Shown in pieces: positions 5,363-60,292 of a stretch of DNA of 62,181 bases. The position numbers were made by a program, and so were the translations under genes. Below the pieces are notes generated by a model. The model had not been told where the DNA came from. It did no database searches and saw nothing but the letters and a program-made list of their open reading frames with translations. The DNA lies in the NCBI GenBank assembly GCA_003223325.1, contig QHYS01000085.1, positions 1-62,181 on the forward strand, written 5' to 3'. The stretch is from Acidobacteriota bacterium (GTDB lineage: Bacteria > Acidobacteriota > Terriglobia > Acidiferrales > UBA7541). The number at the start of each line of letters is the position of its first letter. The stretch's first letter is position 1.

Positions 5363-6193
5363 CTAGGTGCCTTGGACCTTCGCCTGCCTGGCAATGCCTT
5401 GAAATTCCAACGGCAGATGCGCGTCGACCAACGACGCGCCGCCGTCCACTTCAATCAGCTGCCCCGTGATCCAACCGGCTTCCTGCGAGCAAATTAGCGC
5501 GACGGCATTGCCGATATCAGATGGTCTTCCGAGCCGGCGCATCGGCGTCCAGCCGCGCTCCTGCCAGTCGCGCAATCCGCTTTGAAAAACCTCGGGCAAG
5601 CTGTTTAGGACGCTGTCTTCCACCCAGCCTGGGCTGATCGAATTCACGGTAATGTCGCGCTCCGCCAGCGCCACGGCGAAATAACGCACCAACGATTCCA
5701 TCGCTGCTTTTGCCGCGCCCATCGCAACCCAGGGTTGCCAACTCCCGAACCGTCCGCCGGGTGCGAACGTAATGGCCACGATCCTTCCCCCATTGGGCAT
5801 GAGCGGGGCCGCTTCGCGCACCGCCACCAGGAACGCCTTCGCCTGCGAGTCGACAGCTGTGTCCCATTGGGACAGAGTGATGTCCATGGGCGCCTGGTAA
5901 AACGTCGGCGCTTCGGTTCGCGCATTACTTACAAAAATGTCGAGCGAGCCGAATTCCGCCCGCACCTGCTCGAAGATCCGTCGCACCTCATCCGGCCGGC
6001 ACACATCCGCTTGTACGAGAAATCCGCTTGACCCTAGCTGACGAATCTTCGCCAGAGTTGCTTCGGCGGCATCGCGATTGCGATAGTAATGAACCGCGAC
6101 GCGGGCCCCCTTTTCCGCCAGCTTCAGCGCGATGCCCCTGCCGATGCCTCGCGAACTTCCCGTGACCAGCGCATTTTTCCCTTGGAATGACAT
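5363..6193 (-). CDS. Short-chain dehydrogenase/reductase, atypical active site
   Basis: A Rossmann-fold SDR of 276 residues. The nucleotide-binding TGSSRGIGRG motif is near residue 10, SNARTEAP replaces the usual NNAG strand, and ITGQLIEVDGG near the end is family-typical. The ATG at 6193 is chosen because GGGAGG lies about 8 bases upstream; a longer frame to 6238 has no such site. In the WVAMGAAKAAM segment the lysine is kept, but the position four before it is Met, not Tyr. The Tyr seven residues before the lysine, used by FabI/FabL-type enoyl reductases, is Trp. It may be a FabL-like reductase with altered chemistry or a non-catalytic member. It stands alone on the minus strand. Confidence 0.85.
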   Translation of the reverse strand: MSFQGKNALVTGSSRGIGRGIALKLAEKGARVAVHYYRNRDAAEATLAKIRQLGSSGFLVQADVCRPDEVRRIFEQVRAEFGSLDIFVSNARTEAPTFYQAPMDITLSQWDTAVDSQAKAFLVAVREAAPLMPNGGRIVAITFAPGGRFGSWQPWVAMGAAKAAMESLVRYFAVALAERDITVNSISPGWVEDSVLNSLPEVFQSGLRDWQERGWTPMRRLGRPSDIGNAVALICSQEAGWITGQLIEVDGGASLVDAHLPLEFQGIARQAKVQGT

Positions 6194-6394
6194 AGGCCAC
6201 CTCCCGTCATGTGGCGCGGATGTTAGTCCTCGCGACATCGGCAGTCAATCCCGCCGCCAGCGACTCTTGGCGGCTTCGAACTACGCCGTTACTTTGGCGC
6301 ATCCTGAGACGGGCCGATGATCCGTTGGGAGTGAGGTCACTTCTGCGTGTCGCCCTGGCTCGTGTCGCACCTTCGGGTGTAGACTCGGGCAGCG

Positions 6395-7684
6395 ATGAAG
6401 TTCCACAGGATAGCACTCACCATCGCCGTGTCCGTAGCCCTTGCTGGATGGCTCGTTTCACCGGGGCTCCGCCAGACAAACGCACAGCCCTCTCGCAAGA
6501 CCGAACACACTCAGATAGCGGAATTTTCAGAGGCGGGCAAGGACGCGCTGTCGCGCCAGTTAAGTGACGCCGTCGCTCGGGGCGACACGCCCGGCGTCGT
6601 CGCCCTCGTTGTCGGCCGCGATGGCGTGTTGTACGAAGGCGCAGCGGGCAAGCTCGCTGTGGCCCACAATATCGCCATGCCCGCCAATGCCATCTTTGCG
6701 ATCGCGTCGATGACCAAGCCGGTGACCTCGGTGGCCATCATGATGTTGCTTGAAGAGGGCAAACTCAGCCTCGATGATCCGGTGTCGAAATACCTGACCG
6801 GGTTTGACAACCTGCGGGTCATTACGAAATTCAACGAGAAGGATGCCACTTACGAAACGCGACCGGCCAAGCGGCCCATGACCATCCGGCACTTGCTGAC
6901 GCACACCTCTGGCATCGGCTATGCGTTTACGAACCCAATCGAGTATCAGCTTACTCAGGCGACGAAAAAGAACGAGTGGGAGTTGCCGCTGCTGAGCGAT
7001 CCAGGCGAAAAATGGCACTACAGCGCCAGCACGCGCGTGCTCGGCATGATCGTCGAGAAGATCACCGGCGCGTCGCTCGAGGACTATTATCAGCAACGCA
7101 TCTTCAAACCGCTGGGCATGGTGGATACGTCGTATGCCGTGCCCGCCGCCAAACAGTCGCGCGTGCCAACACAGCACAGCCGCGTCAACGGCCTCTTGCA
7201 GGAGCAGCCCCGTGCACCCATCCCGTCGACGCCGACGCCCCCGTTTCGCGGCGATGGGGGCCTATACTCGACCGTTCAGGATTACGGCAAGTTCGTCCGG
7301 ATGATGCTCAATGGCGGCTACCTCGCGTCTGCACAAATCCTGAGCGAGAGCTCGGTGAAGATGATGGGCGAGAACAACATCGGCGCGATCTTCGTGGACC
7401 TGCAGCCAGACGCCGACAAGCAGCGCACCAGGCCGTTTCCGCTCGGCGCCGGCCACGACAAATTCGGACTGGGGTTTCAGATCGCGTCAGGCGATCCGCA
7501 GGACGCAAAATACCGCAGCCCGGGCAGCCTGAGCTGGGCGGGCATCTATAACACCGAGTTCTGGATCGATCCCGTGAAGCGCATCGGCGGCGTGCAGATG
7601 ATGCAGGTGCTGCCGTTCTACGACGATGGCGCAATTCGAACCTTGCGTGACTTCGAGGAACTGGTGTACAAAAACCTCCAGTAA
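6395..7684 (+). CDS. Secreted serine hydrolase, beta-lactamase class C / esterase family
   Basis: The 429-residue protein starts with a signal peptide (about residues 1-31). The catalytic S-x-x-K is in ASMTKP near residue 105, the Y-x-N position is YSAS near residue 208, and the late FWIDP segment lies beside the third box. These fit penicillin-binding-protein-like esterases and D-aminopeptidases of the beta-lactamase superfamily, so true beta-lactamase activity should not be assumed. It sits in the periplasm or is secreted. The PQQ dehydrogenase follows about 20 bases later on the same strand and is probably in the same operon; an ester-hydrolysis-then-alcohol-oxidation pairing is a plausible inference. 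Confidence 0.88.
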   Translation: MKFHRIALTIAVSVALAGWLVSPGLRQTNAQPSRKTEHTQIAEFSEAGKDALSRQLSDAVARGDTPGVVALVVGRDGVLYEGAAGKLAVAHNIAMPANAIFAIASMTKPVTSVAIMMLLEEGKLSLDDPVSKYLTGFDNLRVITKFNEKDATYETRPAKRPMTIRHLLTHTSGIGYAFTNPIEYQLTQATKKNEWELPLLSDPGEKWHYSASTRVLGMIVEKITGASLEDYYQQRIFKPLGMVDTSYAVPAAKQSRVPTQHSRVNGLLQEQPRAPIPSTPTPPFRGDGGLYSTVQDYGKFVRMMLNGGYLASAQILSESSVKMMGENNIGAIFVDLQPDADKQRTRPFPLGAGHDKFGLGFQIASGDPQDAKYRSPGSLSWAGIYNTEFWIDPVKRIGGVQMMQVLPFYDDGAIRTLRDFEELVYKNLQ

Positions 7685-45486: not shown

Positions 45487-46410
45487 CTACTTGTTCTGCT
45501 CGCGCTCGTTCTTCTTGTCTTGCTTCTTCTCATTTTGGGCTGCTGCGGCTTCTTCCGCAATTTCCTTGTTGTAGATCTCTGCTTCGGATTCCGAGCAAAC
45601 CATTTCGCGGATATCGAAACTGTCTGCCTCTAAGCGCAATGGGTACTTGTCGAGAGCGTTCCACGGCTTGGTGTAGTATTGGGGGTCGATGATCGTAAGA
45701 GTAAGTTGCATGAGGTCGTGACTTACCCGATGAAACTGTTCCTCTACCTTTAGGTCCTTGGTATGCGGACGCCCGGCGTTGTCGATCCAGGTCCTTTCGT
45801 CCAAGCCGGTGGTTTCCACCACGAAGGTGTAGTCGTCGACCCATTTGCCAGTCGAGTATCCGTACCAGCGCGGCTCAGTAATCGCGGGGAAGGCACGGCC
45901 ATCGGTCCAGATGGAGCGCCATACCTGGTCATTTTCATACACGACCAGCGTCTTCTTGGGCGTCTGAACGATTTGAATGGCTCTCAAATCGTGTAGATCG
46001 ATGCGCGGGAAGCCGATGGGATCGCACATCTTGAACGGGTCGTTGACTTGAGCTAGAGGATAGGAGCCGAAGCCATCGCCGTATTTGTGTTCCTTCCAGG
46101 CTTTTTCTCCCTCCGGCGTGTAGGGAAGAGGATGCTTCCCGTCCATAGGATAGTTATACGCGCCTTGCGCCTGGACGCCGTTTCGCCATCCTTCGGCCGG
46201 TTCCCAGGTCCCGGAGATGTCGTGCCTGGGAGCGGGAGCTGATTTTTGAGGCTCGACCACTCTGGGGATCGGCCGGTTCCAGCCGTCTATGTGGACTTCA
46301 AGCTCATCGGGGTCGACAGGGCTTGAGTTTTGAGCATGCGCCACGATCGAAGGCGACAAGATCAGTACTGCGAATCCGGTGAGGGGGAGAACAGGGAAGC
46401 GCTGAAACAT
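45487..46410 (-). CDS. Secreted protein of unknown function, paralogue of 59489-60292
   Basis: 307 residues from ATG 46410 with GAGGAGAG upstream. Signal peptide about 1-27, then HDISGTWEPAEGW, YTPEGEKAWKEHKYG, MCDPIGFPRIDLHD, VYENDQVWRSIWTDGR, WYGYSTGKWVDDYTFVVETTG and PHTKDLKVEEQFHRV, and a Lys/Glu-rich end. The family is an uncharacterised periplasmic protein frequent in Acidobacteriota. The protein at 59489-60292 has the same order of blocks. It begins 14 bases after the DUF6152 gene stop and so forms a pair with it. Confidence 0.8.
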   Translation of the reverse strand: MFQRFPVLPLTGFAVLILSPSIVAHAQNSSPVDPDELEVHIDGWNRPIPRVVEPQKSAPAPRHDISGTWEPAEGWRNGVQAQGAYNYPMDGKHPLPYTPEGEKAWKEHKYGDGFGSYPLAQVNDPFKMCDPIGFPRIDLHDLRAIQIVQTPKKTLVVYENDQVWRSIWTDGRAFPAITEPRWYGYSTGKWVDDYTFVVETTGLDERTWIDNAGRPHTKDLKVEEQFHRVSHDLMQLTLTIIDPQYYTKPWNALDKYPLRLEADSFDIREMVCSESEAEIYNKEIAEEAAAAQNEKKQDKKNEREQNK

Positions 46411-46424
46411 TGCCGGTGCTCTCC

Positions 46425-46862
46425 TCACTTCACGGCGTTGGCTTCATGATCTTTCCGCGCGGCGTCATTGCCGTCATATTTCCCGGCGGTCTTCATAATC
46501 TGGCCATTGGGGAGCACGATCTGAGCGAGGCGCGCGATGGGCGCGCCGCTCCGCGCGACTTCGCTGGTGACAATGGTGATTCCATCGCCCGGCTTCAGAG
46601 TTCCTGCGGTAAAGCCAAAGTTAATCATGTTGGAGGGAGCAACCAACTCGCCAACCCAGTGAACGATATTGCCGCCATCATCTTTTACGTCAAACCTCAA
46701 GAGAACATGCGGATTGGTCCACAGCCAAGCCGTCACCGTGCCCTTCAACATGACCGTTTTGGCTTCGTATGCGGCGTTGCCGTGATGCGCGAGCAGAGGA
46801 GGAGAGGCGATCAGTGACAAAAGAGCAGTAACAAGAACACGCGCCTTCAGCCTGGCGTTCAC
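46425..46862 (-). CDS. DUF6152 secreted protein
   Basis: 145 residues from GTG 46862; a TTG at 46883 would overlap the oxidase gene. A signal peptide ends before AHHGNAAY. The DUF6152 pattern is LKGTVTAWLWTNPHVLLRFDV, HWVGELVAPSN, LKPGDGITIVTSEVARSG and VLPNGQIM. It is a small exported beta-barrel-like domain of unknown function. It lies between the oxidase and the secreted partner, all on the minus strand and almost contiguous. Confidence 0.82.
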   Translation of the reverse strand: MNARLKARVLVTALLSLIASPPLLAHHGNAAYEAKTVMLKGTVTAWLWTNPHVLLRFDVKDDGGNIVHWVGELVAPSNMINFGFTAGTLKPGDGITIVTSEVARSGAPIARLAQIVLPNGQIMKTAGKYDGNDAARKDHEANAVK

Positions 46863-46870
46863 GGTGTTCC

Positions 46871-48112
46871 CTAGCTTTTCCAATTAGGAGTGGCAACGTA
46901 TTCGCGGGTGATGTCCGCGACGGTGCGCGTGCCGCAATTGCCCATCACCAGTTTCAGTTCACCCTGCATGATTTCGAGCACGCGGTCGACACCGGCCTGA
47001 CCGAATGCCCCGAGTCCCCATAGAAAGGGTCGGCCAATGCCCACGGCCTTGGCGCCGAGCGCCAGGCCCTTGAAAACGTCGGTGCCACGACGAAAGCCGC
47101 CGTCGACGAACACAGTCAGGCGGTTGCCCACTTCCGCGACGACTTCGGGCAAGGCCTCGATTGTGGCACGGCCAGTTTCTGTGGAGCGCCCTCCGTGATT
47201 GGAGACCAAAATGCCGTCGATACCATGTTCGACGCAGAGCCGCGCATCCTCGCGGGTATCTATCCCCTTGATGAAAAATGTTCCTTGCCAGAACTTGCGG
47301 ATGCGGTCCACGAACGCCCAATCCATCGCAGGATTTTGCCTGAGCACGCCGTCCATGTTGATGCCGTCATACATGGGATGCTCTTTAATGGCCGATCCGG
47401 GCTCGCCTTCGTGGCACGTGGCGCATGGACTCATGTCCTTGGGCCTGGTGCGCAGATAGGTTTCGCTGTGGCGGCCGGTGGTGTTATCGCAGGTGAGGGC
47501 AATCACTTTGCAACCGGCAGCTTCCACGCGCCGCAGGATTTTCTCGCAAGCGTCCCAGGAACTTGGGGCGTAGAGCTGATACCACACGGGGCGCCCGAGT
47601 TCCTTGTTCACCTCTTCGACCGGCGTCGATGTCGACGTGGACAAAAACTGCAGTGTGCCGCGCGCTTTGGCGGCGCGGGCGACGGCCAATTCACCGTCGG
47701 GGAAAAACGATTTCTCCCCGCCGGTGGGGCAGGTGAAGATCGGGCTGTTATAGACAGTGCCGCCCAAGTCGACGTGCATGTCCACTTTGGTGGCGTCGCG
47801 CAGCCGGCGCGGGCGCAACTCCACGTGCCTGAATCCTTCGCGATTGGCGCGTAGCGTGGCGTCGTCATCCACGCCGCTGGCCATATAAGCCCAGTGGCCG
47901 GGCTGGACTTTCCGGTGAGCAGCCTCCTCGAAATCGAAGACGTTGAGAGCTTGCGCCGGGCTGGCGATTACGTCGGAGGCTTCGCGCGTTTGCTGGGCCA
48001 GGCCGCTTTGCTCAAGGAATGCAGTCACTCCGCCAAGCGCAGCGACGTAAGGGCTGGCGGCCAGAAACTTAAGAAATTCGCGGCGGGCACTACGAACAGA
48101 AGTTTGTTCCAT
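46871..48112 (-). CDS. Exported FMN alpha-hydroxy-acid oxidase with a CxxCH motif
   Basis: 413 residues. The N terminus SARREFLKFLAAS is a Tat-type twin-arginine signal. The FMN barrel has the lactate/glycolate-oxidase order: GTVYNSPIFTCPTGG, FLSTSTSTPVEE, PVWYQLY, IALTCDN, IKGIDTREDARL, then the active-site base in VSNHGGRST and VFVDGGFRRGTDVFK. Residues C230-A-T-C233-H234 form a CxxCH, the covalent heme c motif, in the loop before the seventh strand. This would be an unusual flavocytochrome, or the motif is a metal or disulfide site. The substrate is a 2-hydroxyacid. It starts a three-gene cluster. Confidence 0.85.
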   Translation of the reverse strand: MEQTSVRSARREFLKFLAASPYVAALGGVTAFLEQSGLAQQTREASDVIASPAQALNVFDFEEAAHRKVQPGHWAYMASGVDDDATLRANREGFRHVELRPRRLRDATKVDMHVDLGGTVYNSPIFTCPTGGEKSFFPDGELAVARAAKARGTLQFLSTSTSTPVEEVNKELGRPVWYQLYAPSSWDACEKILRRVEAAGCKVIALTCDNTTGRHSETYLRTRPKDMSPCATCHEGEPGSAIKEHPMYDGINMDGVLRQNPAMDWAFVDRIRKFWQGTFFIKGIDTREDARLCVEHGIDGILVSNHGGRSTETGRATIEALPEVVAEVGNRLTVFVDGGFRRGTDVFKGLALGAKAVGIGRPFLWGLGAFGQAGVDRVLEIMQGELKLVMGNCGTRTVADITREYVATPNWKS

Positions 48113-48282
48113 AGTGGGCGTACTCTAGCACTTCTGCCTGCGGCTGACCAGACGCAAAGGAGCAATCTCGGCGGCACTGGCGTGGCCGTTTCGGAATAAT
48201 CTAGAATGAGACCATCGGTCCCGCACGCCGGAAGTGGGTCTTGAGCTGCGTTATTAGGTGCAGAGAACGCGAGGTGAGGGTG

Positions 48283-49389
48283 ATGGTCCGAAGGGGATTC
48301 ACGCTAGCTGCTGTGCTTACGGCGGTCGTTGCGTTTGCCGGGGCGAGCCGCGCCCAAGAGACTCCATACCCTAAACCGACCGACCTCCCCAATCCGTATC
48401 GTCTCGTCCAGGGCTGGCCCACTCTGCCCAAGAGCATGAATGGAGGTCATTGGGGTGAAGTAATCCGGGTGCATGTCGATTCCAAGGGCAACATTTGGGT
48501 CTTTCATCGCTGCTTCAACGTCGTGCCTCCGGGCAATGCCACGTGCATCAATCGCGGAGACGCGAATCCGCCAATTTTGGAATTCGACCCATCAGGGCAG
48601 CTTCTGAAAAGCTTCGGCGTGGGACTCTTTGCATATCCGCATGGGTTCACCATCGATCCCGACGGGAATTTGTGGGCCAGCGACGTAAACGACCAGGAAA
48701 CGGTGCTCGGCATGTCGGCGAAGAACACGGCCGGCGTGATCATGGGGCAGGAGGTCCTGAAGTTGAGTCCGGAGGGCAAGGTTCTGATGACGCTCGGCAA
48801 AGAGGGCGTGGCGGGGGATGGTCCGGACACGTTCGATCGGCCGACTGGCGTTGCCATTGCGCCGAATGGCGACATCTTTGTGGCCGACGGCCATTACCCG
48901 AACAAGCACGACTCGGCGCGGGTGGTGAAGTTTTCCAAGGATGGCAGATTCATCAAATCCTGGGGAAATAAAGGAGCGGAACCCGGCAACTTTGACGAAC
49001 CGCACGACATTTTTGTGGGCGGGTCTGAGAACCGCGTGTACGTCGCTGATCGCAGAAACCGCCGAATCCAGGTTTTCAACCAGGACGGCAACTTCATCGC
49101 GGCGTGGAAACAATTCGGCCAACCAAGTTCGGTATTTGTCGGAAAAGACGACACGATTTACGTCGGGGCCTCGTTCCCGGATCCCAAAGCAAAGAAAGGC
49201 GAGTTGCGGGGTATCGTGATTGGGAACGCTAAAGACGGCTCGCTCAAGGCGTTCATTCCTGATCCCGCAGACCTCGATCGAGTGATCAATGGCACTTCGG
49301 CGTCGGGCATCGCGGCCGATGACAAAGGCACCATCTACGCCGCTGACGTCGGCACGCACAATCTAAGAAAATACGTCAAAGTCAACTAA
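48283..49389 (+). CDS. Secreted NHL-repeat beta-propeller
   Basis: 368 residues from ATG 48283, with GAGGTGAGGG in front. Signal peptide about 1-25, then about six NHL-type blades: HVDSKGNIWVFHR, GFTIDPDGNLWASDVND, GVAIAPNGDIFVADGHYP, DIFVGGSENRVYVADRRNRRIQVFN and a last IAADDKGTIYAADVG. It resembles peptidyl-alpha-hydroxyglycine alpha-amidating-lyase-like and 6-bladed secreted propellers. No catalytic role can be assigned. Its 5' region is divergent from the oxidase gene. Confidence 0.87.
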   Translation: MVRRGFTLAAVLTAVVAFAGASRAQETPYPKPTDLPNPYRLVQGWPTLPKSMNGGHWGEVIRVHVDSKGNIWVFHRCFNVVPPGNATCINRGDANPPILEFDPSGQLLKSFGVGLFAYPHGFTIDPDGNLWASDVNDQETVLGMSAKNTAGVIMGQEVLKLSPEGKVLMTLGKEGVAGDGPDTFDRPTGVAIAPNGDIFVADGHYPNKHDSARVVKFSKDGRFIKSWGNKGAEPGNFDEPHDIFVGGSENRVYVADRRNRRIQVFNQDGNFIAAWKQFGQPSSVFVGKDDTIYVGASFPDPKAKKGELRGIVIGNAKDGSLKAFIPDPADLDRVINGTSASGIAADDKGTIYAADVGTHNLRKYVKVN

Positions 49390-49767
49390 GCGTGATAGTA
49401 AGTCAGTTTCCGAAAGGCGCTAACGTTTTCGGATGCTTATTATAGTCATGACGACGGGCTAATGCCTCTGTGTGGTAAAGTGCATCCATCGTTTACGAAA
49501 GCCCGCGACGAGGAGTCGCGCAATTCATGGGGCGAGACGCTATTCGATCGGCTAGCGGGGACAGTTATTGCGCTGGACCTTCTTCTTTTGAGCCTGCCAC
49601 GGCCATTTAGCTCCTGATACATGGGATTTTCGTGACTCACGACGTAAGCGCCTCTATTCCCACTCCATCCCACTCCAGCCAGCTTGACACTCCCCACATG
49701 CAGCTATATGCTCCGCGCTAACATTCTCGTTTTTTATTCGGAAGTTGCCTCGCAACCGGAGGTAATC
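49390..49767. other. Intergenic region before the TonB receptor gene
   Basis: 378 bases. No gene is recognised; reading frames on both strands lack family features. The receptor promoter should be here. Confidence 0.4.
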
Positions 49768-52700
49768 ATGAGAAAGAGCCAGACTGTCGGGCATTTTCTG
49801 GTGGTTTGCCTGCTTGCGGCAACGTCTGCATGGGGGCAGGCCGGTACAAATTCAGGCGTCATCGCAGGCGAAGTGGACGATTCCTCGGGAGCTAAAGTCC
49901 CGAACGCAAAGGTCGAGGTGACCAGTCCGGCGCTGATCGAACAGGCGCGCGAAACGGTCACCGGCGATGACGGGCTGTACAGAATTGTAAACCTGCCGCC
50001 GGGCATTTACGCGGTGACCGCGACGCAAATGGGCTTCAGCGCGTCGAAGCACGAGGGCATCGAAATCACGACGGGGTTCACGGCAACGGTGAATTTCAGC
50101 CTGACGCCAGGGTCCGTGACGCAAACGGTTACGGTCACCAGCGAGGCCCCCGTTCTGGACACACAAGACTCGGTGGTACAGAAAATCGTCAGCAACGCAG
50201 TTCTCGAGGCGCTGCCGATCGGGAAGAGCGCTACCGATTATCCCGCGCTGCTTCCCGGAGCTATCGCGCCCGCTGCGAGCCAGGACGTGGGTGGCCTAAG
50301 AGGAGAGCAGAGCCAGGGTTTCCGCATCCATGGGAGCGCCCCGATTGACTATACGGAACTGCGGGATGGCATGTACTACGGGGCGATGACCGGTGGAGGA
50401 AGTAATCAACTTTCCAGCAACAACCCCACGGCCACGCAAGAAGTCCAGCTTGAAACCGGTGGGTACACGGCCGAGGATTGGAACAACGGCGGTCACGTCA
50501 ACATCATTCCGAAGAATGGCGGCAATGCTTTCCACGGATCATTTCAGGCCGACTTCGGCCACAAAGCCCTGCAGTCAGGGAACGTCACGCCGGCGCTTCA
50601 GGCTCTGGGTGTTCCCGCGTCTTCTTCTATCCGCAGCCTGTATGAAGTCGCAGGAGGAGTCGGCGGCCCTATCAAGAAAGATAAGCTCTGGTTCTTTGCT
50701 GACGCGAGGCATTGGATCAGTTCGTCCTATCAGGCGGGAGCCAACTTCTTCTATGACGCCAACGAAGCCGCTCCTTTTCCCAATAACCTCTATTACGCGG
50801 CGGATCCTAGCCGCCCGGCTTACGACATTAATACCTATACGGAGGTAGGCTTGCGCTTAACCTGGCAGGCCACCAAGCGAAATCAGTTTACTGAGCACTT
50901 CATCCAGGAGAGAAATTGCAACTGCTTCTATACGATCAGCTCGGGCCTACTCGCTCCCGAAGCGGCCACGCACCACTATTACCTGCACGATTCGCACGAC
51001 CAGGTCACGTGGACGTTCCCGGTCAACAATAAGCTAGTCTTGTGGGCGGGTTTCACAGCGGTGATGAGCGACATTGACACGAAGGGTAGCGGAGAAACTC
51101 CGACCAGCTTTGCTATTACCGACAGCAGCGCAAATTTTACCTACGGTGCAAACGGCACCGCCCTGAATCCTGGCGGGACTTACGGCCTCACCACCCAGAT
51201 TGACTTTAACGAAAACTTCACCGCCTCCTATACAACGGGGCCGCACGCTTTCAAGTTCGGATTCTCCGAACTGCAGGCGAGAGGAAGTAGATTTGCCACC
51301 TTCTCCAATCTCGCCGGCGCCAATGGCTTTCCTTACGGCGTTCAGTTACAGATGCAGTGCCAAGCGATTACTTTGGCCAGTCCTATGGCCGGTCTCCCGC
51401 CTGGCGCTCCGTACCCTGCTAGTTTGCTCAATGCAGCCGGCCTGCCAACAACTGATTACAAGATCGGGAACAAGGTCCTTAAGGCACCGACGGTAGCGCC
51501 GACAACCGTAAACAGCTTGTCCTGCCCGGTCGTTCCTGGAGTCTAGACGCAGGCGCTGCTGCCCAGCCAAGTTGTACAGTTCCTCGCTCCCTATGACCTT
51601 TCGGTAAGTGGGGAGGATCACGCGCTCTTCGCACAGGACCAATGGAGGATCAAGCGGCTGACCGTGAATCTGGGTCTGCGGTTCGATTGGTTTCAGGGTC
51701 GCGACCCAGCGCAAACAGAGCCGGCGCAGCCGCAGTTCGGCCTTGCCGCCAAGAGTTTTGCCGCACAGAACAGCGCGGCGGATTGGAAAGACATCAATCC
51801 GCGGCTTGGTGCGGCCTACGACCTGTTCGGTAATGGCAAAACGGCTCTAAAAGTCTCGCTCTCACGAGGCGTACTTACCGAAGGGCTGACCACGAGTGGA
51901 ATCACGTTGCTGACCAATCCTGTGAACGAGCTGGCCAGCAGCACTACGCGGAGTTGGACAGATTACAGCGGTACATTTAACCCCCTAGCGGATGGTGCGA
52001 ACTTTACCAGTCCGCTTGCCAGCGGCGGCCTAGGCAGCCTAGGCCCCGCGAACACGGCGGGTTTCTACAGTGGTTCGAACACTGCCAATGTAACTTATGC
52101 TAACAACGTGACACACGGCTTTCAGAATCGTCCCTACGACTGGATGCTGTCGGCCTCGGTCCAGCAGGAAGTCGTCAGGAATGTCGCGGTGAGCATCGGC
52201 TATTACCGAACGTGGTTCGGCAATCTGACGGTTGCGCAGAACACCGCCATCCCAACGACGGGCTACGACCAGTATTGCGTGACGCCGCCCGCGAGCACCG
52301 CCTATCCGGGATTTGGCGGTACGCAGGTGTGCAATCTCTATGATCCTCAGTCTCTGTATCTCGGCAGGGCTTCGTATCTGGTGCAAAAAGCGTCGAATTT
52401 CGGCAAAGAATCGGACGTCTACACAGGAATCGACGCCATCGTGAATGCCCGGTTTCACGGAGTGCTGCTGCAGGGCGGCATGACCGCGGGACATGAAGTT
52501 ACCAACTACTGCATCGAGGTAAATTCACCCCAAGATTTATTTTGGATCTCGAATCCATCGCCTGGCGCTTCTTCCATTCTCGAATTCAACAACAACAATG
52601 CCACGAATACCAGCTCCGTGCAGGGGAATGTCACTCCGCTCGTAAACGATGCCGCTCCGTGCCACATCAATCCGCCGTGGTATCAAAATCTTCAGTTCAA

Positions 52701-53157
52701 GATGATCGCGGTATACACGCTGCCCTGGTGGAAGATAAAGCTGAGCGCCAACGAGCAAAACCTGCCCTCGATCCCGCTCCAGGGAACTTACTTTTACAGA
52801 TGCGGCTTACCACAGACCTGCGTAAGTGCCGGCGTCCAATTCCTTCCCAACACGAACGGCCATACGACCCTTACGGGAAACCCTACGAATAAGGTCGAGG
52901 TACTTACGCCGCAAACTCTTTTCCCCTTTGGCCGGGACAATCAAGTCGATTTCCGCGTAGCCAAGGACATCAACATCACAGAACGATGGAAGATCCAGCC
53001 GACCGCGGATTTTTACAATCTGCTGAATGCCAATCCGATTCTGACCGTCGGAACGGCGTACAACACGTCAGCGCCCGGCACACCTGGCGCGTGGCGCAAT
53101 GCCACGAGCGTTTTGCCCGGGCGACTCATCAAGTTCGGCGTGCACCTAGACTTCTAG
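49768..53157 (+). pseudogene. TonB-dependent, CarboxypepD-reg outer-membrane receptor with in-frame amber codon
   Basis: One continuous frame of 1129 codons carries a TAG at 51544-51546 (codon 593). Both sides fit one protein: a signal peptide, a carboxypeptidase-regulatory domain (SGVIAGEVDDSSGAKVPNAK), plug segments (DTQDSVVQKIVS, FRIHGSAPIDYTELRDG), barrel strands, then after the stop HALFAQDQWRIKRLTVNLGL and an end VLPGRLIKFGVHLDF. A CAG-to-TAG change would explain the stop. Such Oar-type proteins take up large ligands. RBS GGAGGT precedes the ATG. As it stands only about half the receptor would be made. Confidence 0.85.
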
Positions 53158-53247
53158 GGTGCCCCGACGCGCCCCCGGCCTAGCCGAGCGCGGTCCTCGC
53201 CCAGGCAAACACACGTTCAAACTTCGGCAGCGAGTTTCAATGGTTAA

Positions 53248-54420
53248 CTAGAGGCACTGGCAGTAGGAGCGGCCGAGCTCGGCAATCGAGGGGCAACCGA
53301 GCAGCCGCAGCGTTCGCTCCAAATCCGTCCTCAGAATCTCGAGAGCGCGTGCTACGCCCGCTTCGCCTGCCGCCGCCAGGCCGTAAGCGTAAGCCCGGCC
53401 GCACAGAACGGCACGGGCGCCCAGGCAAAGCGCCTTCACGATATCCGCGCCGCGACGAATGCCTCCGTCCATGAGCACTTCGATTTGCCCGTTCACCGCC
53501 GAGACGATTTCCGGCAGCACTCTCAAAGTGGCCTGGACGCCATCGAGTTGTCTCCCACCATGATTGGAAACCACTACTGCTCGAGCTCCCTCGTCGATGG
53601 CACGTCGGGCATCCTCTCCCGTAAGCACTCCCTTGATGATGATTGGGCCGCGCCAGACGTCGTGAATCCAGCGCAGGTCTTCCCAGCAGATCGTCGACTG
53701 GGCTAAAGCTGAGCCGACATCGATCAACGGCATCGGTCCACGTCCGGGGACGACTACATTAGGCAGCGGCCGTACGCCGCCATCGAGCAAAAAGCTCGCG
53801 AGCCAACCGGGACGAGCCAGCACCTGGGGCGAAAATCGAATTTTGCCGATGAGACTCGGCCCAAGCAGCTCCTTCATACCGTTGCGGAAATCGCGCTCGC
53901 GCATTCCCGCGACGGCGGTGTCAACGGTGACAACGATACCGGCAAATCCGGCGTTGCGGGCACGTTCCAGGGCGCCTTCGGCAACTTCACGGCCTCCCAT
54001 CAAGTAGAGTTGATAGAACACCGGGCCGGTGGATGCGGCCTTGACTTCTTCTAGCGCATAACCGGAGATTGTCGAGAGGATGTAAGCTGTGCCCGCTTGC
54101 CCCGCCGCGCGACACGCCGCCACTTCACCGTCCGGGTGTATGACGCGGCTATAGCCGACCGGCGCCAGCAACGCGGGAACGGAGAGATCGCAACCCAAGA
54201 CTCGAGTCCGCAAATCGCAGTGAGGGATTGCTATGGCTTGGCGCGGACGGAACGTGATTTCCTCAAAGGCGCTACGATTTTCGCCCAGCGTGATTTCATC
54301 TTCGGCGCCTCCATCCACATAGTCGAAAACGACTCTGGGCAGCCGGCGGCGCGCCAAATTCCGGAGGTCAGCAATATTCACAACGCGTGGAGATGCGACT
54401 CTTGCGGCGTATCTAGCCAT
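53248..54420 (-). CDS. FMN-dependent alpha-hydroxy-acid oxidase (lactate / glycolate oxidase family)
   Basis: 390 residues, no export signal. Conserved blocks are VFDYVDGGAEDEITL, LLAPVGYSRVIHPDGE, ILSTISGYALEEV, YQLYLMGG, IVVTVDTAVAGMRERDFRNG, IIIKGVLTGEDAR, the active-site VSNHGGRQLDG, and VLMDGGIRRGADIVKAL. It oxidises a 2-hydroxyacid to the ketoacid. It lacks the CxxCH of the other oxidase (46871-48112). The cysteine-bearing end (SYCQCL) is odd but unassigned. It is convergent with the receptor gene and divergent from the acetamidase gene. Confidence 0.92.
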   Translation of the reverse strand: MARYAARVASPRVVNIADLRNLARRRLPRVVFDYVDGGAEDEITLGENRSAFEEITFRPRQAIAIPHCDLRTRVLGCDLSVPALLAPVGYSRVIHPDGEVAACRAAGQAGTAYILSTISGYALEEVKAASTGPVFYQLYLMGGREVAEGALERARNAGFAGIVVTVDTAVAGMRERDFRNGMKELLGPSLIGKIRFSPQVLARPGWLASFLLDGGVRPLPNVVVPGRGPMPLIDVGSALAQSTICWEDLRWIHDVWRGPIIIKGVLTGEDARRAIDEGARAVVVSNHGGRQLDGVQATLRVLPEIVSAVNGQIEVLMDGGIRRGADIVKALCLGARAVLCGRAYAYGLAAAGEAGVARALEILRTDLERTLRLLGCPSIAELGRSYCQCL

Positions 54421-54591
54421 CTGCAGAACCGTGGGACCTCTGCCGTGAGGAATTTACCACGACCAAGGAGGCAAATGGCGCGGCGCGGTGGAGTTGAAAG
54501 GAAGAATTGGTCCTCGGAATTGAGGCGCGTTACAATCCCGGCGCAGGCACGAGAAAATGCACGCTCGTAATTTGTCTTCGGAGAACCAACG

Positions 54592-55635
54592 ATGACGCGA
54601 TCCGCAGCTCCGGTCCTTTTTCTCTTTGCGTACTTGGCTGTTCCATTAAAGGCGCAACAGTCCACAGTGCCGGCAGGGCAAATCTATCAACTCAAGCCTA
54701 CGCCGCAAACAGTCGTGTGGGGATATTACGATCCGAAGACTCCCCCCGTGCTGCGCATCAAATCGGGCGACACGGTCGAAATCCAGACGCTTATCGCCTC
54801 GAGTCCCGAGCGCTTTGATAGCGCCGGCCTGGGATCCGACCAAATCGAACCAGCGTTGCGCGACATTTACCGAGAGGTCAAGGAAAGAGGTCCCGGTTAT
54901 CACGTCCTGACCGGCCCGATCTTCATCGAAGGCGCAGAGCCGGGCGACGTTTTGGAAGTGCGCATCCAGCAAATTCGGCTGGCCATCCCGTATGCGATCA
55001 ACGCCTTTTCGCCCGGGCGCGGTTTCTTGCCGGACGATTACCCGTACGCGCGGACTAAAGTTATTCCACTCGATGAAAAGCGCATGGTAGCTCACTTCGC
55101 GGATGGAATCGAGATTCCGATTCGTCCCTTTTTTGGCAGCATGGGCGTGGCGCCGCCGGGAGTGACCGGGCGCATTAGCAGCAATCCGCCTTGGATGCAC
55201 GCAGGGAATTTGGACGACAGGGATTTGGTCGCCGGGACCACGCTTTTCATCCCGGTGCACGCGCGTGGGGCGCTCTTCCAGGTGGGCGACGGCCATGCAG
55301 GCCAGGGAGATGGGGAGGTGGATGTCACCGCGTTGGAAACTTCGTTGACCGGTACCTTCCAATTTATTGTGCGCAAAGATATGCACCTGCGCTGGCCTCG
55401 CGCCGAAACGCCCACGCAGTACATCACCATGGGGCTGCACGCGGACCTGACCGAAGCTACGAAAATGGCTGTGCACGAAATGATCGATTTTCTGATGCAG
55501 GAAAAGCACCTGAGCCGCGAGGATGCCTACATGCTGGCAAGCGTCTCGGCCGATCTGGCGATCACCGAAGTCGTCGATGGCAACAACGGCGTGCACATGA
55601 CAATTCCCAAGGCAATTTTCGTAACGAAGCGATGA
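54592..55635 (+). CDS. Exported acetamidase/formamidase family protein
   Basis: 347 residues with a signal peptide (about 1-22). The acetamidase/formamidase fold is shown by VVWGYYDPKTPPVLRIKSGD, GPIFIEGAEPGDVLEVRI, FFGSMGVAPPG, SNPPWMHAGNLDDRDLVAGTTLFIPVHARGALFQVGDGHAGQGDGEV and the late ASVSADLAITEVVDGNNGVHM. The family releases ammonia from short amides; export suggests an extracellular amide. It stands between two other genes without close neighbours. Confidence 0.93.
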   Translation: MTRSAAPVLFLFAYLAVPLKAQQSTVPAGQIYQLKPTPQTVVWGYYDPKTPPVLRIKSGDTVEIQTLIASSPERFDSAGLGSDQIEPALRDIYREVKERGPGYHVLTGPIFIEGAEPGDVLEVRIQQIRLAIPYAINAFSPGRGFLPDDYPYARTKVIPLDEKRMVAHFADGIEIPIRPFFGSMGVAPPGVTGRISSNPPWMHAGNLDDRDLVAGTTLFIPVHARGALFQVGDGHAGQGDGEVDVTALETSLTGTFQFIVRKDMHLRWPRAETPTQYITMGLHADLTEATKMAVHEMIDFLMQEKHLSREDAYMLASVSADLAITEVVDGNNGVHMTIPKAIFVTKR

Positions 55636-56004
55636 GCCAATCGGAGCCCTGGGAGGGAAGCAAGTCACGGCTAAATCCCTTTCTCTGGACGCTTACTCTT
55701 CCCAAGCTTGACTTGAGGTTATCAGAAGAATAGAGTCTGGACCGCTTTCTGCTTTTTTCGAGGATAGTCGGCCTAATCAGAAGCGTTCTTTGTTGCTTAA
55801 GACGCAGGGGAGAACTGTCTTACGTACTGGTCGACTATTTTTCGTGCTGGTTGCTCCGTTCCGAACCGCCGTTCTTTACTGCCTGATCGCTACTCCTGTG
55901 GCCGTCTTTTATATCTGGGCTCGCCCGTCCTTTTACCTGGTTTGTGGTTGCCGGATCTCGGTTCGGCCGGAAATAGGCAGGTGGAAACTAACAGGGGTGC
56001 GTTC
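55636..56004. other. Intergenic region with a possible sigma-70 promoter
   Basis: 369 bases. TTGACT (55708-55713) and TAGAGT (55731-55736) are separated by 17 bases, close to a sigma-70 promoter, about 270 bases before the next start. No gene is recognised. Confidence 0.35.
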
Positions 56005-56960
56005 ATGAAAGGGAAATTGGGGAAACTCCTACTTGTCGGGCTTGTCCTCAGCGTTAGTCTGTCGCTATCGCTCCGTCTTCGAGCGCAGGAACAACCGCAT
56101 CGCCAGAATCTCGGAGAGCTTCAACGTGCAGTTATGAACTTTGGGTCGACCTCGGAGACAACACTGCTGTTGCAATCAGCGGAACCACATTCGAGATCAC
56201 CAAGACCGTCGAGCTGACCGGTGGAAAAGGCGCCGCGCATCGAGATCCGGATAACGCCGCGTATGATCCCGTCAAGGGCTTGTACTACGTTGGCATCGTT
56301 ACAGGGCAGGGAAATAAAGATGACACAATCGAGATTGTCGATACCAAGGCGGCCAAATTGGTGGGCAGCATCAAGATGGATGGCACCGATCCGGCAGGAA
56401 TCATCCTTGACCGTGCAGCAAACAGGCTCTACGTTGGCATGGGAGATGTCGTGAACGGTGACAGTGTCGTCAAGGTCATCGACACCAACAAACGAGCTGT
56501 GATAGCCGAGTGGCCCATCACCGGAGGGCCGCAGCCCCACACCGCGGGTTTGGACGCCGCTCATCATCGCCTGTTTATGGGCAGCCGGCTGGGAGGAGGG
56601 CACGTGGTCGATCCCGGGAAACTTGTGGTCCTCACCGACACCGGAAAGGTAGTTCAGGCGCTGGACGCCGTAGGCGGCGCTGATGAGATCTACTATGACG
56701 CTCCGACTTCGCGTATTTATTTTTCCGGGAGCTCGGGAAGTTTGGCCGTGTTTCATGAGGACGACCCGGACCATTTCCGAATGCTTGGAAAAGTTCCGAC
56801 CGGATCGATCGCCAAGTCGGGTGTGTGCATCCCGGAAATGAAGCGGTATTACTCGGCTGTCCCGAAGCACCTGGTCCAACTGATGCCTACAACGCAATAT
56901 GGGACAGACGACTGGCTTACGGAGGAATCCCATCTCATGGTCTTTGAAGAGGTTCCCTGA
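56005..56960 (+). pseudogene. Secreted YVTN-type beta-propeller with frameshift
   Basis: ATG 56005 opens a signal peptide (KLLLVGLVLSVSLSLSLRL) in one frame; the propeller lies in another. From about 56130 the second frame reads YELWVDLGDNTAVAISG, DNAAYDPVKGLYYVGIV, IEIVDTKAAKLVGSIKMDG, NRLYVGMGD, HHRLFMGSRLGGGH and RIYFSGSSGSLAVFH. The frames join near 56110-56130, so one or a few bases are missing or added. The PQQ gene starts 4 bases later; both would be exported. Confidence 0.75.
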
Positions 56961-56964
56961 GAAC

Positions 56965-58833
56965 GTGCGCTCCCTGGCTTCCTCTTGTTTATTTCTCGGC
57001 TGTGTGGTGATTGGCACGACGCTGGCTACCGCACCGGTCTTCGGGCAAACCGTGTCTTCTCAAACTGTATTGGGCGCAGACGTTTATCAGACGCGGTGTG
57101 CGCAATGTCATGAGAATGCGGCGGCCAGTCGCGCGCCCTCGCGGGACACACTGCAGAAAATGACGGCGAGCCGCATCCTGCGGACCTTGGACTTCGGACT
57201 GATGATGGGCGTGGCTTACCCGCTGACGCGCGAGGAGCGCCAGGCCGTCGCCGGTTTTCTGGGCACCAAGGGGAGCGAGCCAGGACCCGCGGCCAGCGCC
57301 TTCTGCAGCGCTGAGCGGCATCCCCTGTCCGCCGAAACGGCCGGGAATTGGAATGGCTGGAGTCCCTTGCCTGCGAATACCCGCTTTCAACCATCCGGCG
57401 GAATCACCCGTGATCAAGTCCCGCGGCTGAAATTGAAATGGGCATACGGATTTGCGGGAGACGTGACCGCCTTCGCCGCGCCCACGGTCTTGGACGACAC
57501 GATTTTCGTGGGCAGCGCCGGCGGAGTAGTGCAGGCGCTGGAGGCGAAGACCGGCTGCCTGCATTGGACTTTTCAGGCCAACGGGCCGGTGCGCTCCGCG
57601 ATTACGGCTGTGGCGAACGCCTCGGGTTCGGATTACTCGTTGTTGTTCGGTGATCAGATCGGCTGGTTCTATTCACTCGAAGCCAAAAGCGGCCAGCTGC
57701 TTTGGAAGCACCGCATAGACGACCACGAGGGGACGCGGCTGACGGGCTCGCCCGAGGTCTATGCAGGGGTAGCATTCATCGGAGCGGCCTCCTGGGAGGA
57801 GACTCGCTCGATCGAGCCGCACTACGCTTGCTGCACGTTTCGCGGCAGCGTGACGGCACTTCGCGTGGCGGACGGATCGAAGGTTTGGAAGACCTACACG
57901 ATTGATCCGCCCAGGAAGACGGGGGTCAACAGCGCAGGCGCGCAGCAGTGGGGACCTTCCGGGGCGCCGGTGTGGTCGGCACCTACGATTGATCCCAAGC
58001 GCGGCGTGATCTATGTGACTACGGGCGACAACTACTCCTCTCCTGCCACGGCAACCAGCGACGCGGTGATGGCGCTGGATATTACAACGGGGAAGATACG
58101 ATGGTTCCAGCAAACCACCCCGAACGACGCCTATACGAGCGCCTGCCGCAACCACGGCCCCAACTGCCCCGAAGAGGACGGCCCCGATTATGATTTTGGT
58201 TCCTCCGCGTTGTTGCTCTCGTTGCCGGACGGAAAAGATATTCTCGTTGCCGGGCAGAAATCTGGGGTGGTCTATGGGCTGGATCCGAACCAGAAGGGCA
58301 AGGTTCGTTGGCAGACGCGCGTCGGACAGGGCGGCAGGAACGGAGGCGTGCAGTGGGGTATGGCCAGCGACGGCCAAGCGGTCTTCGCAGCGGCCTCGGA
58401 TTTGACCGGAGTGCTGAACTCTGGCGGGGCCGTGGGCGGGGCCAAGTTCGATCCCGCCAAGGGCGGCGGCTTGACGGCGTTGCGACCGGCCGATGGCGGC
58501 AAGATGTGGTTCGTCGCGCCACATCCGTGCGATCCGCCGCGCCCCGGTTGCAGCCCCGCGCAGTCGCAGGCGGTGACGGCCATTCCCGGGGTGGTTTTTT
58601 CGGGCTCCGTTGACGGCCATTTGCGCGCGTTTGCGGCCGGAGATGGCAAAATCCTGTGGGATTTCGACACCGCAAAAAGCTACTCCACGGTGAACGGTGT
58701 CGAAGCCAAGGGAGGATCGCTCGACGGCGCCGGCCCGGTCGTCGCTGGGGGAATGCTGTTTGTAAATTCCGGTTATCCTCGCAACGGCGGAATGCCGGGA
58801 AACGTGTTGCTGGCGTTCGCACCAGAAGAGTGA
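56965..58833 (+). CDS. Cytochrome c-PQQ fusion dehydrogenase (PVA-dehydrogenase-like)
   Basis: About 622 residues from GTG 56965. Signal peptide about 1-28, then a short cytochrome c domain with CAQCH at residues 45-49, then a PQQ propeller (docking segments such as SGQLLWKHRI and DGKILWDFDT). The SIEPHYACCTFRGS adjacent cysteines and the CRNHGPNCPEEDGPDYDFGSSALL active-site region resemble polyvinyl-alcohol dehydrogenases rather than methanol-type enzymes. It would oxidise secondary or polymeric alcohols and pass electrons through its own heme. It sits in a run with the propeller gene upstream and the DUF6152 pair downstream. Confidence 0.88.
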   Translation: MRSLASSCLFLGCVVIGTTLATAPVFGQTVSSQTVLGADVYQTRCAQCHENAAASRAPSRDTLQKMTASRILRTLDFGLMMGVAYPLTREERQAVAGFLGTKGSEPGPAASAFCSAERHPLSAETAGNWNGWSPLPANTRFQPSGGITRDQVPRLKLKWAYGFAGDVTAFAAPTVLDDTIFVGSAGGVVQALEAKTGCLHWTFQANGPVRSAITAVANASGSDYSLLFGDQIGWFYSLEAKSGQLLWKHRIDDHEGTRLTGSPEVYAGVAFIGAASWEETRSIEPHYACCTFRGSVTALRVADGSKVWKTYTIDPPRKTGVNSAGAQQWGPSGAPVWSAPTIDPKRGVIYVTTGDNYSSPATATSDAVMALDITTGKIRWFQQTTPNDAYTSACRNHGPNCPEEDGPDYDFGSSALLLSLPDGKDILVAGQKSGVVYGLDPNQKGKVRWQTRVGQGGRNGGVQWGMASDGQAVFAAASDLTGVLNSGGAVGGAKFDPAKGGGLTALRPADGGKMWFVAPHPCDPPRPGCSPAQSQAVTAIPGVVFSGSVDGHLRAFAAGDGKILWDFDTAKSYSTVNGVEAKGGSLDGAGPVVAGGMLFVNSGYPRNGGMPGNVLLAFAPEE

Positions 58834-59045
58834 AAGCTGCTCTTGCCCGCCATCACTTTACGGCGAGATATCTGCGCCATCCATTTTTCCAGGAAGCTCC
58901 AGCGGCAAAAATTATTCTCGCAGAGGGCGCGCTTACTTTGATCGTGCTTCTTGCTTTGCTCAGTAGAAAGCCGCAGGATGTATACTCTACGACGACCCGC
59001 AATTAGCCGAACCGGGATTGATGCCCAAATCGGAGGGTGCTTACG

Positions 59046-59426
59046 GTGAGGGTAACCAGCTTTTTGGCGGTTGTTCTTCTTTTATCAACGACAAGCGCTG
59101 TGATGGAGCACCACGGAACAGCAGGGTACGACATGACCAACATGGTCACCTTTGGGAAGGCCACGATTACAGAGATCGAGTGGACCAATCCTCATTGCCA
59201 GATTCGTTTCGACGTGATGAATGACAAGGGCGATCTGGAACACTGGACACTCGAGGCTCCTCCTCCGAGCATGTTGGCGCCCCGCGAGTGGAGCAGGAAG
59301 TCGCTGCAAGCAGGCGATATGGTGAAGATCGAGTTTCATGCTGCCAAAAACGGCTCGCCCTTCGGAATCATACAAAGGGTAACCCTCCCCAATGGCAAAA
59401 TACTTCGCGCCTATCCGGACCGCTGA
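59046..59426 (+). CDS. DUF6152 secreted protein, second copy
   Basis: 126 residues from GTG 59046, chosen because GGAGG at 59031 is 9-10 bases away; GTG 59037 is too close. Signal peptide, then EHHGTAGYD, FGKATITEIEWTNPHCQIRFDV, HWTLEAPPPSM, LQAGDMVKIEFHAAKNGSP and VTLPNGKILRA. The same block order occurs in the protein at 46425-46862. It is followed by the same type of secreted partner. Confidence 0.82.
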   Translation: MRVTSFLAVVLLLSTTSAVMEHHGTAGYDMTNMVTFGKATITEIEWTNPHCQIRFDVMNDKGDLEHWTLEAPPPSMLAPREWSRKSLQAGDMVKIEFHAAKNGSPFGIIQRVTLPNGKILRAYPDR

Positions 59427-59488
59427 GCGCCTCGCTCCATTTTGTTCCTGCCCCAGTACGACTTCGAAGACTGAGTAAAGGAGTTCTT

Positions 59489-60292
59489 ATGCGAAATCTC
59501 TTCTTGCATTCCGCCGCTTTGGTGCTGGGAGTGGTGGCCTTATCGGCCGGTTCAGGAGGTCAAACGAAGACGCCGGCAAACTCCAAAGCCGGAGCTCAAG
59601 GGCAGATCCCCGATTTGTCTGGAGACTGGGGGAATCCCGTTGGCGCAGGAGGCGGAGGCTTTATCATTTCCGATCCAGGCGACAGAAAGGCAGGAACACC
59701 GCAAGACGATACGCCGTATCAGCCCTGGGCACTGGCCAAGCTAAATTCCGAAAGACCCGAAAACGGACCCCACGGGACTTTTGAGAATACGACAGACCCG
59801 CGTCTGAAGTACTGCGATCCGGTGGGCGTCCCGCGGATTTACCTGGTCCCCACGCAATTCCGGTTTGTTCAGACCCCCGATATCCTGTACATCCTCTATC
59901 AATACGGTCCGACTTGGCGCCCGGTAGCCATGAACCGCGGCCACCGCCAGGACCCCGATCCTACCTGGTGGGGAGAGTCAGTCGGGAAGTATGAAGGCGA
60001 TACTCTGGTCATTGACACCATCGGCTTTAACGATAAGACCTGGCTCGATCACGTAGGGCGTCCGCATAGCGACGAGCTGCACCTCACTGAACGGTTCCGA
60101 CGCATCAATCATGACACTCTACAGCTCGACTTGGTCTTCGACGACTCGAAAGCCTACACAAAAACGTGGGCCGGACGAAAAATCTTCGCGTTGCAGCACG
60201 GTGGCTTCGAGGACGCTTATGCCTGCTCGATGTCGGAGTATGAGCACTTTCGCCAGAGCGTCGTGGACCCGGTTACTGCTCCCAAGAAGTAG
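59489..60292 (+). CDS. Secreted protein of unknown function, paralogue of 45487-46410
   Basis: 267 residues from ATG 59489 with AAAGGAG in front. Signal peptide, then PDLSGDWGNPV, PYQPWALAKLNSERP, LKYCDPVGVPRIYLVP, FVQTPDILYILYQYG, GESVGKYEGDTLVIDTIGFND, TWLDHVGRPHSDELHLTERF, MSEYEHFRQ. The matching blocks in the paralogue (MCDPIGFPRI, TTGLDERTWID, GRPHTKDLKVEEQFHRV) show a common family. Both copies follow a DUF6152 gene, so they very likely act together. Confidence 0.82.
   Translation: MRNLFLHSAALVLGVVALSAGSGGQTKTPANSKAGAQGQIPDLSGDWGNPVGAGGGGFIISDPGDRKAGTPQDDTPYQPWALAKLNSERPENGPHGTFENTTDPRLKYCDPVGVPRIYLVPTQFRFVQTPDILYILYQYGPTWRPVAMNRGHRQDPDPTWWGESVGKYEGDTLVIDTIGFNDKTWLDHVGRPHSDELHLTERFRRINHDTLQLDLVFDDSKAYTKTWAGRKIFALQHGGFEDAYACSMSEYEHFRQSVVDPVTAPKK

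Follow-up and report, generated by a model that had tools for sequence, protein, structure and literature searches.

SusCD systems are amplified pairs of outer-membrane and periplasmic proteins that have co-diversified and, like the DUF6152-partner pairs described here, are present tens to hundreds of times next to various enzymes, but the SusCD folds are unrelated to those of DUF6152 and its partner, both of which are small exported proteins. CusF and CcmE are periplasmic OB-fold metal or haem proteins, and a small exported OB barrel is also predicted for DUF6152. We know of no N-terminal His-His in CusF or CcmE, and a search of solved structures found no sequence relation between OB proteins of this type and DUF6152. 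DUF4198, DUF6702 and Ang-1/2 (PMC12537917), as well as LPMO and the CopC histidine brace (PMC7529816, PMC10952591), are secreted proteins in which the signal peptide is immediately followed by a conserved His and in which a further His is conserved, which is also the arrangement in DUF6152. For DUF4198 and DUF6702, metal binding was predicted from the conserved N-terminal His and recently confirmed by experiment (PMC12537917); its conservation is 79% and 65% in these families, compared with 100% in DUF6152, and DUF4198 prefers nickel and is reported to be a beta-sandwich, whereas DUF6152 is a predicted OB-fold. DUF6152 also differs from the N-terminal-histidine metalloproteins in having a near-constant calycin-like partner and a metal site that is only predicted. 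The partner shares a predicted up-and-down barrel with calycins (FABP/CRABP, NanoLuc), with no sequence relation found, and has a conserved Cys pair, inserted segments and a C-terminal helix of its own.

The window analysed is a stretch of 62,181 nucleotides from an acidobacterial draft genome of 6.1 Mb (98% complete), hereafter the home genome. Two pairs of a DUF6152 gene and an uncharacterised partner gene had been predicted in it, and both were found, one on each strand (Table 1). Both DUF6152 copies score above the curated Pfam cut-off for PF19649 (27 bits) and therefore belong to this family, whose entry gives no function and whose description includes neither the partner, the fusions, the His-His cleavage site nor the copy number. 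No paper naming DUF6152 or PF19649 was found in the literature searched, the parts of the PMC12537917 main text used here do not name the family, and the partner matched no Pfam or NCBIfam family. The predicted paralogy holds for both members (DUF6152 copies 33% identical, E 5e-24; partners 35%, E 2e-30), and hydrophobic export-type N-termini on each agree with the predicted export.

Table 1. Features of the two DUF6152-partner loci of the window and of the adjoining genes.
Feature	Position	Strand	Evidence and remarks
DUF6152 copy 1	46883 (GTG 46862)-46425	-	PF19649 63.2 bits, alignment
DUF6152 copy 1, parts		-	Signal peptide, predicted cleavage between ...LLA and HHGN, then predicted OB-fold domain; model pLDDT 87
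DUF6152 copy 1, His-His codons	46787-46782	-	
DUF6152 copy 1, third His (NPH) codon	46709-46707	-	
Partner copy 1	45487..46428; start GTG 46428 or ATG 46410	-	Model pLDDT 91, FABP/CRABP-like barrel Z ~8
Partner copy 1, character		-	Exported, predicted calycin-like barrel protein; two conserved Cys; no Pfam/NCBIfam family
DUF6152 copy 2	59037 (GTG 59046)-59426	+	PF19649 74.0 bits
DUF6152 copy 2, His-His codons	59109-59114	+	Atypical Glu, not a small residue, just before
Partner copy 2	59489-60292	+	35% identical to copy 1; partner profile match E 1.5e-78
FMN_dh-family oxidoreductase adjoining pair 1	46871..48112	-	PF01070 E 9.5e-110; context, outside the unit
PQQ-type beta-propeller with N-terminal cytochrome c domain, adjoining pair 2	56899..58833	+	PF13360, PF01011, PF13442; context, outside the unit

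Several features of the surrounding genes can be added. The FMN_dh protein has a twin-arginine-like N-terminus, and the PQQ-type protein weakly matches TIGR04528, 'acido-empty-quinoprotein group A' (66 bits against a cut-off of 650). The contig carries a third DUF6152-partner pair 3 kb beyond the window, with an array of more partner genes behind it; pair and array together occupy 65034-70663, 3-8 kb from the window end. Beside them is a third FMN_dh gene (63550-64785), and the contig has three FMN_dh paralogs.

The two families are linked far beyond the window. A profile search of the home genome gave about 98 copies of DUF6152 (100 match pieces) and at least 150 copies of the partner, the best 150 of 192 candidates having been scored. 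A partner lies within 700 bp of 89 of the 100 DUF6152 matches, compared with about 6% expected by chance, while 51 of the 150 scored partner copies have no DUF6152 gene within 1.5 kb. The same order of genes had been claimed for both pairs, and this is correct for the window, but in general 54 pairs run DUF6152-partner and 24 partner-DUF6152. For these 78 pairs the distance matrices of the two proteins correlate with a Mantel r of 0.67 (none of 2000 permutations was as high, the best reaching 0.13), which indicates that the genes were duplicated as pairs; DUF6152 and its partner have co-diversified. Local tandem duplication of the pair was rejected because the copies are scattered, with median identities of 36% and 33%. 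Similarly, a recently mobile cassette was rejected, the copies being mostly far diverged and the pairs co-diversified.

Across the phylum, both families were found in 21 of 199 genomes, DUF6152 alone in one, the partner alone in one and neither in 176 (Fisher P 4e-26). All 19 loci selected from other genomes by DUF6152 have the partner inside the 3.2 kb examined, and the great majority of 80 loci selected by the partner contain a DUF6152 gene, the latter set having been found with a six-member partner alignment that favours partner-rich genomes. In 17 further genomes, from Acidobacteria, Proteobacteria and one bin labelled Acidimicrobiia, the DUF6152/partner copy numbers include 40/38, 47/43, 57/54, 100/88, 125/138 (in a genome of only 2.6 Mb) and at least 150/150; these genomes were drawn via partner matches and are thus biased high. 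Among the partner-selected genomes the two numbers track each other (Spearman 0.76). By the identity of one partner, the named genomes nearest to the home genome are Acidobacteria gp2 AA84 (93%) and AA83 (79%). In some genomes from soil and sea the unit ranks with the more abundant gene families, although one member is named in no paper found and the other is hit by none of the family models used in the search.

The two proteins also occur as a single chain. Five ORFs in four proteobacterial genomes encode a signal peptide, DUF6152 and the partner in one chain, and in the gammaproteobacterium TMED78 (G209, 1.6 Mb) 32 of the 47 DUF6152 copies are fused to the partner. One example of a natural fusion is found at 5434-6663 of stretch L165. 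DUF6152 is N-terminal in all 37 fusions, which share ancestry and hence are not independent of one another, yet 24 of the 78 unfused home-genome pairs have the reverse gene order. With DUF6152 first, the His-His described below stays at a free N-terminus, and such fusions are to be expected if DUF6152 must keep its N-terminus free. The unrecognised exported module of the original prediction is strongly supported by the linkage of the two families, their near-perfect co-occurrence and co-diversification, and the 5 + 32 natural fusions.

We put the probability at about one in two that DUF6152 acts with its partner as a single secreted unit of two parts, a ligand-specific metalloprotein. Pairing, co-occurrence, co-diversification, fusions and invariant residues were observed directly and the folds are predictions, whereas the cleavage site, the binding of metal and ligand, the docking and the chemistry are inferred.

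The strongest new fact is that three histidines of DUF6152 are invariant and that two of these stand at the N-terminus predicted for the mature protein. Residues were counted over 260 sequences, which come from the home genome, from dozens of others and from a gammaproteobacterium. His1 and His2 are each found in 255 of 255 alignable sequences, and the His of an xPH turn in 259 of 259, nearly always as NPH but also as QPH, YPH or FPH; other conserved columns are W45 (96%) and E48 (91%). A hydrophobic stretch directly precedes His-His in 254 of 255 sequences. The residue before His-His is Ala in 223, Ser in 26, Gly in 3, and Thr, Pro and Glu in one each (A/S/G/T in 253/255), and position -3 is almost always occupied by a small or aliphatic one. 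In G209, where this residue is A in 22, S in 21, G in 2 and T in 1, Ala and Ser are about equally frequent, which points to a constraint for a small residue, as in a signal peptidase I site, rather than for Ala. Since His-His directly follows the signal peptide and a small residue, mature DUF6152 most likely starts with it at the predicted cleavage site. DUF6152 thus shows the marks of N-terminal-histidine metalloproteins, being secreted with a His after a predicted peptidase site and having a second conserved His, with these residues as putative ligands. Copy 2 of the window is the sole case of 255 with Glu at -1; it may therefore not expose His-His, and is probably cut elsewhere or degenerate.

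A loose twin-arginine pattern is found in 15 of the 254 stretches upstream of His-His. This low frequency suggests that Sec export is the rule for DUF6152, and Tat export as a general route was rejected. Against the Sec-type rule, a DUF6152 protein of Novosphingobium sp. PP1Y plasmid Mpl (L208, 3183-3911) has a twin-arginine-like signal peptide with RRAFLK.

The same residues bear on an explanation without any metal, which we regard as unlikely: DUF6152 and the barrel would together capture small organics for uptake by TonB receptors or TRAP transporters, or for neighbouring hydrolases, and the histidines would be structural. Known amplified binding-protein families have a copy-number pattern similar to that of the unit, and the unit lies beside a TonB receptor on sphingomonad plasmids and has TRAP, TonB and sulfatase neighbours in G209. 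However, a structural need poorly explains why all 255 sequences have two neighbouring His exactly where cleavage is predicted, or why DUF6152 is N-terminal in every one of the 37 fusions.

Folds were predicted for both proteins. DUF6152 was modelled (pLDDT 87) with OB topology, a five-stranded barrel with a helix between strands 3 and 4, and some 80 of its residues align with PriB/SSB at VIA Z 8-9. In the model of the partner (pLDDT 91), about nine strands form a barrel and a helix closes the C-terminal end; it compares with FABP, CRABP and NanoLuc at Z ~8 (110-120 residues at 3-3.5 A). Foldseek gave weak matches for both models, none with E below 0.001, so that the likeness is at the level of the fold and implies no relationship; the CcmE structure 2kct is among those of the DUF6152 model (E 1.6e-2). 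For DUF6152 and for the partner alike, searching solved structures by sequence turned up no convincing relative. We therefore describe DUF6152 as a predicted OB-fold and the partner as a predicted calycin-like up-and-down barrel, both of them barrels that many unrelated proteins share. The covariation pairs 30-46, 29-49 and 34-42 fix the register of DUF6152 strands 2 and 3 so that the xPH His faces Glu48. The N-terminal ten residues of the model have a mean pLDDT of 75. High covariation scores of columns 1-2 and 27-28 were dropped as evidence, being artefacts of invariant columns. In the partner, two Cys (97% and 98%), Arg137, Glu195 and Asp213 are near-invariant.

As a ligand-specific metalloprotein, the unit would work as follows. 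DUF6152 would be exported, mostly by Sec, and signal peptidase I would remove the signal peptide immediately ahead of His-His. The small OB-fold domain of the mature protein would then start with His1-His2, which together with the xPH His and probably the strand 3 Glu may bind a transition metal in the manner of N-terminal-histidine ('histidine brace') sites. The metal would most likely be copper, which is a guess by analogy with the histidine-brace precedents (PMC10952591, PMC7529816); because DUF4198 prefers nickel, nickel or zinc could also serve. The partner, a putative calycin-type barrel with a conserved Cys pair, may bind a small, probably hydrophobic organic ligand and would dock with DUF6152 where it is not fused behind it. 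The metal head would act on the ligand in the barrel, or capture metal together with it, and the many co-diversified copies may differ in ligand and be placed beside varied enzymes that handle it. Given the three invariant histidines and the DUF4198/DUF6702 precedent (PMC12537917), the reading we favour most is a secreted metal-binding OB head paired with a ligand-binding barrel. The genes around the unit point to neither a substrate nor a metal. Should the metal site prove real, the histidine-brace proteins would gain an OB-fold class.

A more far-reaching form of this reading, which we consider improbable, would make the unit a secreted mononuclear copper enzyme of a new class. Its OB-fold histidine-brace head would oxidise small hydrophobic compounds presented by the calycin partner, and in some hosts diheme cytochromes would supply the electrons. 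Amplification to about 150 or more copies in one genome would then provide a combinatorial toolkit with which to attack recalcitrant organic matter of soil and sea. Alternatively, the unit could be an 'anglerase'-like metal-capture module without oxidation chemistry, with DUF6152 binding Cu, Ni or Zn and its partner passing the metal on or binding a metallophore. The N-terminal His logic is that of DUF4198, DUF6702 and the Ang proteins (PMC12537917), and in G209 a HupE/UreJ_2 metal-permease gene stands between two fused DUF6152-partner genes (C25:78643-80109, L203). This striking case is a single one with no wider pattern, none of the three HupE/UreJ_2 genes of the home genome being directly adjacent to the unit, and tens to 150 or more such pairs per genome are hard to motivate, which makes metal capture a doubtful alternative.

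The genomic neighbourhood was covered for all DUF6152 copies of the home genome, in 75 stretches. The original prediction had both copies following exported redox enzymes and serving dehydrogenases, perhaps in cofactor or electron handling. The first part is true of the two window pairs but does not characterise the family as a whole, and the second did not hold up: PQQ_2 genes are not enriched near a pair (2-3 of 21 in the whole home genome, P 0.12-0.34), only 2 of the 7 FMN_dh genes are near a DUF6152 gene, both of them paralogs on the window contig, and the neighbours are diverse, with ClpP, trigger factor, sulfatases and TRAP transporters among them. With no regular neighbourhood with PQQ or FMN enzymes, service to these dehydrogenases was rejected. 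Neither family had been expected to occur often without the other or without a redox gene; the families are indeed not independent across genomes, but most copies lack a redox gene. A periplasmic accessory of dehydrogenases is thus very unlikely. The redox enzymes ahead of both window copies speak for it, as do CytoC_RC-type diheme cytochromes, 9 of 13 in the home genome lying within 1 kb of the unit (P 4e-8), but most of the roughly 100 home-genome copies have no adjoining dehydrogenase and redox neighbours are few elsewhere, with cytochromes beside the unit in about 4-5 of the 80 partner-selected loci.

Metallo-beta-lactamase-fold genes are also found within 1 kb of the unit in the home genome (13/53, P 1e-4). 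Elsewhere the neighbours include sulfatases, NHL proteins, arylsulfotransferases, and TRAP and TonB components. Novosphingobium sp. PP1Y and Croceibacterium atlanticum are cultured sphingomonads with the unit on a plasmid. On plasmids of cultured sphingomonads, where the unit adjoins a TonB receptor, the partner is annotated 'hypothetical protein', and the DUF6152 neighbour was confirmed in all four plasmids examined; on a Sphingobium plasmid the unit also occurs with annotated monooxygenases and a peroxiredoxin. Finally, the diheme cytochromes noted above are secreted proteins of about 390 aa with two CxxCH motifs and a C-terminal domain starting (S/A)xxQILDKYI..., and are found near DUF6152 or partner genes in stretches L060, L057, L023, L020, L061, L043, L016 and L080.
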